Translations under genes and position numbers: made by a program
From: Phyllobacterium sp. 21LDTY02-6
GTDB taxonomy: Bacteria > Pseudomonadota > Alphaproteobacteria > Rhizobiales > Rhizobiaceae
NCBI RefSeq assembly: GCF_023554255.2
Contig: NZ_JAMJWD020000002.1
Coordinates: 923,435-987,434 of the forward strand
DNA length: 64,000 nt
Reading direction: 5' to 3'
Notes under the pieces: model-generated
The model's database searches: none
What the model was told of the DNA's origin: nothing
Seen by the model: only the letters and a program-made list of their open reading frames with translations
Shown here: in pieces, positions 27,473-44,805 of the stretch
Numbering within the stretch: position 1 is the stretch's first letter
Layout of the letters: every line of letters starts with the position of its first letter

Positions 27473-27590
27473 GGCAAAAAAGAAACACCCACCGCTGGGA
27501 GGAGCGATGGGTGTTGCACAAAGAACGGTTCTGGGAGGAAAACCGTCTTGGGTAATCGCGGCCTTGGGAGGAGGAGGTCGCCGCGATCGG
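27473..27590 (-). ncRNA. Cluster of three CcsR/Cuckoo-type small RNA hairpins
   Basis: Three successive stem-loops lie just downstream of the DUF1127 gene on the same strand, each showing UCCUCCC in the loop. They are 27555-27587 (stem ATCGCGG/CCGCGAT), 27525-27546 (ACGGTT/AACCGT) and 27484-27515 (AACACCCA/TGGGTGTT). The last is followed on the minus strand by TTTCTTTTTTGCC, an intrinsic terminator. The layout matches the CcsR (Cuckoo) RNAs co-transcribed with the DUF1127 gene ccaF1 in Rhodobacter, which carry an anti-Shine-Dalgarno-like CCUCCUCCC motif and act in stress and C1/pyruvate metabolism. Confidence 0.75.
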
Positions 27591-27598
27591 GGTATTTC

Positions 27599-27748
27599 TT
27601 AGAACGCCGAAGCGGCCTTCTTTGCCACGAAGGAAATGTCGCCGCGGGAGATGCCGAGGTCGTTCAGTTCACGTGCGGAAAGGCGGCTCAGTTCGTTGAC
27701 AGTGTCGCGGTAACGGCGCCAGTTATTGTAAGAGCGGATCAGGTTCAT
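27599..27748 (-). CDS. DUF1127 small protein (CcaF1-like)
   Basis: A 49-residue basic protein, MNLIRSYNNWRRYRDTVNEL followed by SRLSARELNDLGISRGDI, the standard DUF1127 pattern. DUF1127 proteins are arginine-rich and several bind RNA; CcaF1 of Rhodobacter affects processing of the small RNAs from the same transcript. AAGGTGAG stands upstream of the ATG. The three-hairpin RNA cluster begins about 10 bases past its stop. Confidence 0.9.
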   Translation of the reverse strand: MNLIRSYNNWRRYRDTVNELSRLSARELNDLGISRGDISFVAKKAASAF

Positions 27749-27957
27749 TTCACTCACCTTGCGATTTAAATTTTGTGGATCATTCTGTTGAGCTGCATAT
27801 AGGCGAGTGCCGGCGAGACTTGCAGTGACAAGTTTGCATAGCTGGTTTGCAAGAAATATGGGCTGAATGCCTTCGTTTGCGGCGGATTATGCCTTCAAAT
27901 TGACCATATTCGGCTTTGGCGGCATGAATCCCGCATCATCGCGCTGCCGGAGCAGGC

Positions 27958-28482
27958 TCAAACGGTGCTTTTGGCCGCCTGGCTGCCCGATTTTTGGCCT
28001 CTCGCCCTGGCATTTGCCTTGGTGCCCGTCTGGGCATTCGCCGATTTTGCAGGGCCGGTGCGCTTGCTCGCGCGTTTGCGGGAGCGGCGTTCCATTTCGG
28101 CATCGGCTTTCTTCGCCGCCGCTTCCGACTGTTCGCGATAGGCCTCCACTTCCTCCTCCGTGAGATGCTCGATGCCGATGAAGGAATTCTTGGCCTTGCT
28201 GACCCGCAGCAATTCGTCGAGCTTGGTCTGCAGCGCCACGCTGTCGCGGTTCTGTGTATTCTGGATGAGGAACACCATGAGGAACGTGATGATCGTCGTG
28301 CCGGTATTGATGATGAGCTGCCACGTATCGCTGAAACCGAAGATCGGCCCGCTTACGGCCCAGACGATGACGATGGTCACGCACAGGATGAAGGTCAGCG
28401 GCCGCCCGGCCAGCATCGCGACGTAATTGGCGATATTGGTGAAGAACTGGTTCAATGTGGCGACTCCCCGAAGACCGTGCAT
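27958..28482 (-). CDS. Low-affinity iron permease family protein
   Basis: About 174 residues with two membrane helices (LTFILCVTIVIVWAVSGPIF and TGTTIITFLMVFLIQNTQNR), then LDELLRVSKAKNSFIGIEHL, typical of this family. The C-terminal 50 residues are rich in Lys, Arg and Ala. The family name comes from a yeast iron transporter; a direct iron role in bacteria is not established. The start is uncertain: ATG 28482, or a TTG 8 codons in (before NQFF) that has GGGGAG upstream. Confidence 0.75.
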   Translation of the reverse strand: MHGLRGVATLNQFFTNIANYVAMLAGRPLTFILCVTIVIVWAVSGPIFGFSDTWQLIINTGTTIITFLMVFLIQNTQNRDSVALQTKLDELLRVSKAKNSFIGIEHLTEEEVEAYREQSEAAAKKADAEMERRSRKRASKRTGPAKSANAQTGTKANARARGQKSGSQAAKSTV

Positions 28483-28694
28483 CAGCGTGCAGTGGCACTT
28501 AAACGGGAATGCGACTGCAATGGTTCCGGTTGCGGTTCCAGTTGCGGTTGCGGCAGTCCGGGTGCGGCTCGCGCCGACATAATCCTTTAAAAACGTCGGC
28601 GGGAGGCGTATGCTTGGCGATGATGCTGAGGGTCCCTGTGGGCCAGGCACGGCCACATGGACTGTCCGGTTCTATGAATCAGGGAGGTACCATC

Positions 28695-42770: not shown

Positions 42771-43076
42771 ATGATACCGGGAGAAATCATCACCGCCGCC
42801 GGCGACATCGAGCTCAATGCCGGTGCGGAAACCACTGTCCTGAAGGTCGCCAATAGCGGCGACCGCCCGATACAGGTCGGCTCGCATTATCATTTCTACG
42901 AGACGAATGCGGGGCTTGTCTTCGACCGGGAACGGGCGCGGGGCAAGCGGCTGGACATCGCCGCCGGCACCGCGGTCCGGTTCGAACCGGGCCAGGAGCG
43001 CGACGTCGTACTGATCCCCATCGGCGGCAACCGGACGATCTATGGTTTTCAGCAGAAGATCATGGGAAAGCTCTGA
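42771..43076 (+). CDS. ureB: Urease beta subunit
   Basis: A 101-residue subunit starting [40 protein letters not shown] and [18 protein letters not shown] are typical. The length matches stand-alone beta subunits. It starts three bases after ureJ and is followed 16 bases later by ureC. Confidence 0.97.
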
Positions 43077-43092
43077 ACAGGAAGAAATTACC

Positions 43093-44805
43093 ATGCCCTT
43101 GAATATCTCCCGGTCCGATTATGCGCGAATGTTCGGCCCCACCACCGGCGACAAGGTGAGGCTTGCCGATACGGAGCTTTTCGTCGAGGTCGAAAAGGAT
43201 CTCACGCTCTATGGCGAGGAGGTGAAGTTCGGCGGCGGCAAGGTGATCCGCGACGGGATGGGGCAGAGCCAGGTGACCCGTGCCGAAGGCGCTGCCGATA
43301 CCGTCATCACCAATGCGCTGATCGTCGATGCGACCGGCATATACAAGGCCGATGTCGGCCTGCGCGACGGGCGGATCGCCGCCATCGGCAAGGCCGGCAA
43401 CCCGGATACGCAGTCCGGCGTGACCATCGTCATCGGGCCGGGAACGGAGATCATCGCCGGCGAAGGCAGGATATTGACGGCGGGCGGAATGGACGCCCAT
43501 ATCCATTTCATCTGCCCGCAGCAGATCGACGAGGCGCTGATGTCGGGCGTGACGACGATGCTCGGCGGAGGCACTGGCCCGGCCCATGGCACGCTGGCGA
43601 CGACATGCACGCCGGGGCCATGGCATCTCGGCCGCATGATCCAGGCCTTTGACGGCGTTCCGATGAATCTCGGCCTGTCGGGCAAGGGCAATGCCTCGCG
43701 TCCGCAGGCGCTGGAGGAGATGATCCTCGGCGGCGCCTGTTCCCTGAAGCTGCATGAGGATTGGGGCACGACGCCGGCGGCGATCGACAATTGCCTCGCG
43801 GTCGCCGATGCCTTCGACGTGCAGGTGATGATCCACACCGACACGCTGAACGAGTCCGGCTTCGTCGAGGATACTGTCGCGGCGTTCAAGGGCCGGACCA
43901 TCCATGCCTTTCACACCGAGGGCGCGGGCGGCGGGCATGCGCCGGACATCATCAAGATCTGCGGCCTGCCCAATGTCATTCCCTCGTCGACCAACCCGAC
44001 CCGGCCCTATACGCACAATACGATTGCGGAACATCTCGACATGCTGATGGTCTGCCATCACCTGTCGGCCTCCATACCGGAGGATGTCGCCTTCGCCGAA
44101 AGCCGCATCCGCAAGGAAACGATCGCCGCCGAGGACATCCTGCACGATATCGGCGCCTTTTCGATCATATCGTCGGACAGCCAGGCCATGGGCCGGGTCG
44201 GGGAAGTCCTGATCCGCACATGGCAGACGGCCGACAAGATGAAGCGCCAGCGCGGCGCGCTGCCGCAGGAAACCGGCGACAACGACAATTACCGGGTGAA
44301 GCGCTATATCGCCAAATATACGATCAATCCCGCCATCGCCCATGGCGTTTCCGCCCATATCGGCTCCGTCGAGGTTGGAAAGCGCGCCGATCTGGTGCTG
44401 TGGAACCCTGCCTTCTTTGCCGTCAAGCCGGATATGGTGCTGCTCGGCGGTTCCATCGTCGCCGCGCCCATGGGCGATCCGAATGCCTCGATACCGACGC
44501 CGCAGCCGGTGCACTACCGGCTGATGTTCGGCGCGTTGGGCAGGAATCTTACTGCCTCGTCGGTGACTTTCGTCAGCAAGGCCTCCATCGAGGCGGGTCT
44601 TGCCGAGCGGCTCGGCGTGGAAAAGCAGCTCGTCGCCGTCGAAAATACCCGTGGCGGCATATCCAAGGCGTCGATGGTCCACAACAGCGCCACGCCGCAT
44701 GTGGAGGTGGACCCTGAAACCTATGAAGTGCGTGCCGATGGTGAACTGCTCACCTGCGAGCCCGCGACCCAATTGCCGATGGCGCAGCGCTATTTCCTGT
44801 TCTAG
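43093..44805 (+). CDS. ureC: Urease alpha subunit
   Basis: A 570-residue catalytic subunit. The nickel site is formed by [10 protein letters not shown] (His136/138), the carbamylated lysine in [12 protein letters not shown] (Lys219), HTDTLNESG and [15 protein letters not shown]. The active-site flap has [20 protein letters not shown]. All expected catalytic residues are present, so the enzyme should be active. Urea is hydrolysed to ammonia and carbamate in the cytoplasm. ATG 43093 follows GGAAG. Confidence 0.98.

Follow-up and report, generated by a model that had tools for sequence, protein, structure and literature searches.

The 64,000-nucleotide stretch of Phyllobacterium sp. 21LDTY02-6 DNA analyzed here (hereafter the window) carries on its minus strand, at 27473–27748, an open reading frame (ORF) for a small DUF1127 protein followed by three hairpins, an arrangement described in a first-pass annotation of the sequence and confirmed by our analysis. 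From upstream to downstream, the features of the locus are as follows:

27958–28656 (−): Iron_permease-family ORF, upstream of the DUF1127 gene and on the same strand
27833–27851 (−): putative VtlR/LsrB-type (LysR-family) operator-like box TGCAAACCAGCTATGCAAA, by consensus match
27797–27825 (−): putative core promoter, with a weak −35 element CTGCAA, a 17-nt spacer and the −10 element CTATAT
27757 (−): in-frame GTG, an alternative start of the DUF1127 gene
27753–27760 (−): AAGGTGAG, probable ribosome binding site for DUF1127, from reading the sequence
27599–27748 (−): DUF1127 small protein gene, ATG start, 49 codons (49 aa), PF06568 match
27480–27594 (−): αr14 (Cuckoo-type) anti-Shine-Dalgarno RNA of three hairpins, RF02344, 58.8 bits, equal to the gathering score
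27554–27588 (−): hairpin 1, loop GACCUCCUCCUCCCAAG, containing the full motif CCUCCUCCC
27521–27549 (−): hairpin 2, shortened motif UUUUCCUCCC, 7 of 9 nt
27484–27515 (−): hairpin 3, the intrinsic terminator, shortened motif GCUCCUCCC, 8 of 9 nt
27476–27483 (−): terminator U-tract TCTTTTTT
Downstream of the hairpins: glyoxalase-family ORF

The small ORF matches Pfam PF06568 with an E-value of 3e-17 (62.5 bits against a cut-off of 23.3), and only 10 nt separate its stop codon from hairpin 1. The order proposed at the outset, a DUF1127 gene and then Cuckoo-type anti-Shine-Dalgarno (anti-SD) hairpins as in ccaF1-ccsR, was thus borne out. In each of 19 further genomes of the genus, the best-matching protein is 92%–98% identical to it; among named relatives (the best 80 of at least 504 confirmed loci), the records at this level of identity belong to Phyllobacterium species and two Rhizobiales isolates.

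The hairpin array exceeds chance, with positions 27476–27600 folding at −46.3 kcal/mol compared with −27.4 kcal/mol (sd 3.3) for 200 dinucleotide shuffles, none of which did as well (z −5.8). The anti-SD core UCCUCCC occurs in the sequence of all three hairpins, as had been noted, although the accompanying statement that each loop presents it needs qualification: in the minimum free energy structure the core is wholly open in hairpin 1, whereas hairpins 2 and 3 open CCUCCC only, one base short, the preceding U being paired to an A. Hairpin 3 comprises 13 pairs followed by TCTTTTTT and is terminator-like, in agreement with the initial reading of it as the terminator. Terminator-like sites numbered three in the scanned 1401-base stretch, which is not above shuffled sequence (1.9 ± 1.3).

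Compared with all Rfam families, the segment at 27480–27594 scored 58.8 bits with αr14 (RF02344), covering the whole model, against a cut-off of 58.8; in a search of the whole genome the match was over the cut-off with an E-value of 7.3e-10. A default Rfam scan of the 64-kb window did not list this copy, and because it sits exactly at the threshold and is missing from that scan, we regard it as a borderline match. Five αr14 genes in the genome exceed the cut-off, of which the window copy is the weakest; the best (108.4 bits) also lies behind a DUF1127 gene. Copies above the cut-off were found in all 20 genus genomes searched and in at least 56 of 61 genomes of the family, and genus orthologs at the same locus score as high as 104.7 bits (G076), with one falling under the cut-off (G061, 57.6 bits). 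Membership of the CcsR family (RF02791), as first suggested, was rejected, the CcsR1 model reaching 13.9 bits against a cut-off of 65.3. Nor do the three hairpins represent a copy-number variant of CcsR1–4, since three is the usual number in αr14 according to passages of PMC10746234; Rhizobiales RNAs with three or four hairpins and CCUCCUCCC loops are likewise described in part of PMC3927594.

At 115 nt, the window RNA is slightly shorter than the 123-nt αr14 model, and like αr14 RNAs it consists of three consecutive hairpins, the last being a Rho-independent terminator. The identical full CCUCCUCCC in every hairpin that belongs to the αr14 description in the cited section of PMC10746234 is present here in hairpin 1 only. 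Two orthologs with the same motif loss (G066 and G073) score 67.9 and 69.5 bits, above the cut-off, so the Rfam model does not need the full motif in every hairpin, and we have filed the window locus as a diverged αr14 member. It resembles αr14/NfeR1 of Sinorhizobium meliloti in its three hairpins with anti-SD loops, the terminal one a terminator, and in the LsrB-type box upstream, but differs in that the RNA lies directly behind a DUF1127 gene, whereas NfeR1 has its own promoter, and in that the 9-nt motif is cut to 7 nt in hairpin 2 and to 8 nt in hairpin 3. A short DUF1127 gene adjoining CcsR-like or Cuckoo RNAs defines the CIN1 locus, a definition that we take from the relevant passages of PMC10253847 (the defining paper is PMC4615179), and this is what the window holds. 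Gene order and close spacing are alike, with no difference in kind, making the window locus one more example. The first-pass annotation had presented the RNA as a fresh family member likely to be missed by gene callers; the association already had a name in PMC10253847 (as excerpted), and Rfam does detect the copy, exactly at threshold.

The cassette recurs widely. At least three CCTCC-type motifs occur within 450 nt downstream of DUF1127 in 27 of 29 loci taken from the family's other genera (30 loci were fetched among the matches, the thirtieth being the window's own). Among named relatives, 77 of the 80 loci (the best 80 of at least 504) have three motifs clustered inside 110 nt in the 700 nt that follow DUF1127, compared with 0/80 in each of three control stretches. 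Within the genus, αr14 follows within 600 nt in 40 of 47 short DUF1127 genes, and 39 of 99 αr14 copies begin 8–21 nt past where the DUF1127 protein match ends, a gap that leaves little space for a separate promoter in these cassettes. Rows set aside before these genus counts numbered three of 102 for αr14 and 24 of 71 for DUF1127 (the weaker ones in both cases) and one of 63 for αr15; four of the 99 retained αr14 lie just under the cut-off. The named, genus and family sets share species and are not independent of one another.

Some family members carry more repeats of the motif, up to 8–10 in 450 nt. DUF1127 genes in seven records (L038, L041, L044, L121, L128, L130 and L148) are followed by 9–10 anti-SD motifs per 450 nt, the last four being Aurantimonas records with nine each. 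Tandem DUF1127 genes precede the hairpin array in four others (L025, L027, L035 and L043). Two family DUF1127 genes have no anti-SD hairpins within 450 nt downstream: one is from a 1.1-Mb genome (L040), and the contig of the other (L042) has αr14 copies upstream of the DUF1127 gene instead, among the matches listed. Rhizobiales-like loci of the DUF1127-αr14 type were also found in contigs titled Bacillus subtilis SK6B4 or Xylophilus (a metagenome-assembled genome; L136, L160 and L111), and these assemblies are therefore probably mislabelled or contaminated.

The stems of the hairpins have drifted while their pairing has been kept. For each hairpin, the 27 family loci compared have 27 distinct stems, and exchanging arms between loci reduced pairing to 0.50, 0.45 and 0.60 for hairpins 1–3, which upholds the earlier expectation that stems would differ and pairing be retained in relatives. 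Corresponding values were 0.63, 0.75 and 0.64 for the genus orthologs of the window locus (window-type) and 0.90, 0.97 and 1.00 for a second DUF1127-αr14 cassette of the genus (sister-type), whose stems are nearly invariant; because native arms pair at 1.00 by construction and swapped values also fall with bulges or differing closing pairs, these figures are informative only in comparison. In two retained loci (L020 and L023), the third motif taken for this comparison is visibly not the terminator hairpin. Shuffling the flanks around the loop in 58 loci raised the mean energies from −17.4, −16.6 and −27.1 to −11.4, −10.3 and −13.8, with 141, 160 and 36 of 2320 shuffled hairpins as stable as the native ones or more so. 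RNAalifold on a 55-row MAFFT alignment recovered, besides hairpin 3, only part of hairpin 1 (16 of 19 pairs with at least one two-sided change); recovery was partial because stems from different loci do not align, and per-hairpin folding and arm swapping were used instead.

Loops have followed a different course. The full 9-mer is found in 22, 26 and 16 of the 27 family loci (hairpins 1–3) and in 14, 9 and 9 of the 20 window-type orthologs (own copy included). Losses of the exact 9-mer at hairpins 2 and 3 among the other orthologs mostly consist of shortening, with a few one-base changes or insertions, and three-base differences in loop length are frequent (CTCCTCCTCCC, CTCCTCCC), for which slippage in the CCT repeat may be the source; some orthologs differ by one-base changes. 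Shortened loops are seen in two or more sets of similar orthologs (L052–L054 with L058–L060, and L016, L048 and L049), possibly independently, and hairpin 3 of L058 is reduced to CTCCC. Computed energies of pairing with GGGAGGAGG are −15.5 and −17.9 kcal/mol for the short loops of the window and −18.6 to −19.9 kcal/mol for the long loops tested, indicating that pairing is weakened, not lost.

These patterns bear on whether the hairpins act only in cis, ending and stabilizing the DUF1127 mRNA, with C-rich loops left over from an ancestral small RNA (sRNA) whose role in trans was lost in this lineage. In favor of this reading, hairpin 3 is a good terminator, and hairpins 2 and 3 both lack the exact 9-mer at the window locus and, for each of the two, in 10 of the 19 remaining orthologs, while the sister-type cassette retains CCTCCTCCC in 33 of 33 hairpins (11 loci). 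We nonetheless consider this explanation unlikely: the TCCTCCC core persists in 20, 20 and 19 of the 20 window-type orthologs (hairpins 1–3; 59 of 60 hairpins) despite the drift of the stems, the two shortened loops still pair with three SD-like strings at computed energies of −8.7 to −17.9 kcal/mol, and a terminator by itself would need no three hairpins with the same loop. A sister cassette with the full motif, set against a window-type cassette that often loses it, constitutes a natural experiment on the length of anti-SD seed that is needed.

Upstream of the gene, the box TGCAAACCAGCTATGCAAA fits, on the strand opposite to the gene, the consensus GCAT-N3-TG-N3-T proposed for VtlR in passages of PMC7486931 and PMC8844928, and 12 positions of the published 15-mer are matched. 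Across the window-type orthologs the box starts 101–109 nt (about 100–110) ahead of the start codon. In the 200 nt upstream, the consensus is present in 19 of 20 window-type loci, 11 of 11 sister-type loci, 18 of 29 family loci and 63 of the 80 named loci (the best 80 of at least 504). Control stretches 800–1000 nt upstream contained it in 1, 0, 2 and 5 loci of these sets, respectively, and locus ends in 0, 0, 0 and 1. The strict consensus is missing in the remaining 11 of the 29 family loci. The published 15-mer itself discriminates weakly, as it was matched at 11 or more of 15 positions in 57 of 60 loci but also in 989 of 6000 shuffles, and 6 of 100 shuffles did as well as the window locus itself.

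Searching the genome with the window box (up to three mismatches) returned four sites, against one for the reversed pattern, located at the two DUF1127-αr14 cassettes (window and sister), at one αr15 (AbcR-type) gene and at a lone αr14. Across the 20 genus genomes there were 143 box sites versus 42 for the reversed pattern, the near-palindrome being counted twice, once on each strand. Sites with at most one mismatch were upstream of DUF1127-αr14 cassettes in 14 of 14 cases and those with two mismatches upstream of αr14 or αr15 in 31 of 38; at three mismatches only 23 of 91 were so placed, and 68 lay near neither. Distances are narrow, at 239–254 nt to the αr14 of a cassette, 35–45 nt to a lone αr14 and 44–47 nt to αr15. 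The matches at cassettes are partly circular because the pattern was derived from the window cassette, whereas those at lone αr14 and αr15 genes are independent. Forty-one of the 99 genus αr14 have no box in the 330 nt upstream, including two of the five in this genome.

Between box and gene, all 20 genus orthologs carry CTATAT 47 nt past the start of the 15-mer match; it forms the −10 element of the putative core promoter. A generic sigma-70 scan did not list this promoter, its sole site being an unlikely one inside the start of the gene. The first-pass annotation had proposed checking for an RpoH-type promoter, which would fit a stress locus as in Rhodobacter sphaeroides, where separate one-hairpin sRNAs are induced by heat and oxidants. 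Gene order is identical to that of ccaF1-ccsR1–4, both loci running from a DUF1127 gene through anti-SD hairpins to a terminator; the window's CCTATAT equals the RpoH1 −10 element quoted in part of PMC8844928, and with 9 of 12 positions matching the RpoH string used for comparison, the window site taken alone is compatible with RpoH. Conservation does not support this assignment, as just two of the 20 orthologs carry CCTATAT, with ACTATAT in the remaining 18, and the −35 is CTGCAA or CTCCAA, not CTTGAA. In place of the RpoHI/RpoHII promoter of ccaF1-ccsR1–4, it is the LsrB-type box that is conserved at the window locus, the proteins differ in size (71 aa for CcaF1 versus 49 aa), and the window RNA lacks a match to the CcsR model, the score of which falls far short of its cut-off as given above. 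An RpoH-driven locus of the CcsR type is accordingly very improbable.

A candidate regulator is encoded elsewhere in the genome. Outside the window (L079:164-2445), a gene for a LysR protein of 298 aa lies between trxB (TIGR01292, 401.5 bits) and an αr15 (AbcR-type) gene, and the protein matches PDB 9hh1 over its length (E 2.5e-144), an entry that represents LsrB of Agrobacterium (PMC11975290, in part). VtlR has similar neighbors, its gene lying between abcR2 and a gene for thioredoxin-disulfide reductase (passages of PMC12595884). By homology and position, the 298-aa protein is an LsrB/VtlR-type regulator. Transcription of NfeR1, the founding αr14, requires LsrB, and NfeR1 silences ntrB via three redundant loops, as reported in sections of PMC10746234. 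For VtlR, binding and activation of atu1667 are reported, along with activation of its Brucella orthologs (passages of PMC7486931), which part of PMC12595884 classes as DUF1127 genes. The window locus shares with atu1667 and its Brucella orthologs a small DUF1127-type gene under VtlR, control being predicted in the window from the box. AbcR/αr15 (RF02345) belongs to a separate Rfam family, but it is alike in its anti-SD seeds (published for AbcR1/2) and in having the same box upstream of one copy in this genome.

Building on the observed gene order, hairpins, terminator, αr14 score, paired stem variation, conserved box and regulator gene, we consider it likely that the locus is a CIN1-type cassette in which LsrB switches a single transcript that yields both a small DUF1127 protein and an anti-SD αr14 RNA. 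A LysR-type regulator of the VtlR/LsrB family would bind the box at 27833–27851, and one transcript, starting just past CTATAT, would span DUF1127 and αr14. The front of this transcript would be translated into the 49-aa protein, and its 3′ part would form the three-hairpin αr14 up to the terminator. This 3′ part may then be cut from the message, probably by RNase E, which processes the ccaF1-CcsR (DUF1127-CcsR) transcript of Rhodobacter (PMC10253847, in the passages cited). The UCCUCCC loops would pair with the Shine-Dalgarno sequences of target mRNAs and block their translation; the DUF1127 protein might additionally affect its own 3′ RNA. That the RNA serves mainly as a binding platform for the DUF1127 protein, for autoregulation or RNA storage and not as an antisense regulator, is most doubtful, for although CcaF1, a DUF1127 protein, binds RNA and helps to mature the CcsR RNAs encoded behind it (part of PMC10253847), conservation at the window locus resides in the anti-SD core, not in stem sequence, and short DUF1127 proteins of Agrobacterium act through PhoR contacts (part of PMC12501420).

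The window locus is ordinary for its group; what it contributes is that LsrB-type box, DUF1127 and αr14 constitute one conserved unit, so that phenotypes of DUF1127 deletions and of VtlR may include the loss of an anti-SD RNA. PMC7486931 leaves open whether the product of atu1667 is a small protein or the gene functions as an sRNA; our results suggest that atu1667-like genes may do both, and the locus makes it testable whether VtlR-activated DUF1127 genes double as sRNAs. More broadly, and tentatively, VtlR/LsrB could be a common switch for much of the anti-SD RNA within this group of Rhizobiales (AbcR-type, lone αr14 and αr14 in DUF1127 tails), with VtlR-activated DUF1127 genes being dual-function. 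If this were true, part of the effects now credited to DUF1127 proteins could stem from RNA of the 3′ region.

Three elements of this account have been published before: the RNA family, the gene order, and VtlR as an activator of DUF1127 genes. In titles, abstract openings and cited passages, we found no paper stating that VtlR-activated DUF1127 genes carry αr14. Eisfeld et al. 2021 reportedly placed numerous sRNAs of Agrobacterium under a LysR regulator and may already state part of the link between VtlR, DUF1127 and αr14. A literature search for DUF1127 together with Phyllobacterium returned no paper, and in the portions available of a paper on attenuation of S. meliloti DUF1127 by a leader uORF (PMC12218461), the terms αr14, NfeR1, CcsR and Cuckoo were not found.

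Elsewhere in the window, Rfam 5_ureB_sRNA (RF02514) matched 43247–43534 (−) at 99.7 bits, antisense to a 587-aa ORF at 43042–44805 (+). This ORF we take, by eye, to be the large urease subunit; conservation of the coding sequence, not a proven RNA, is the probable reason for the match.
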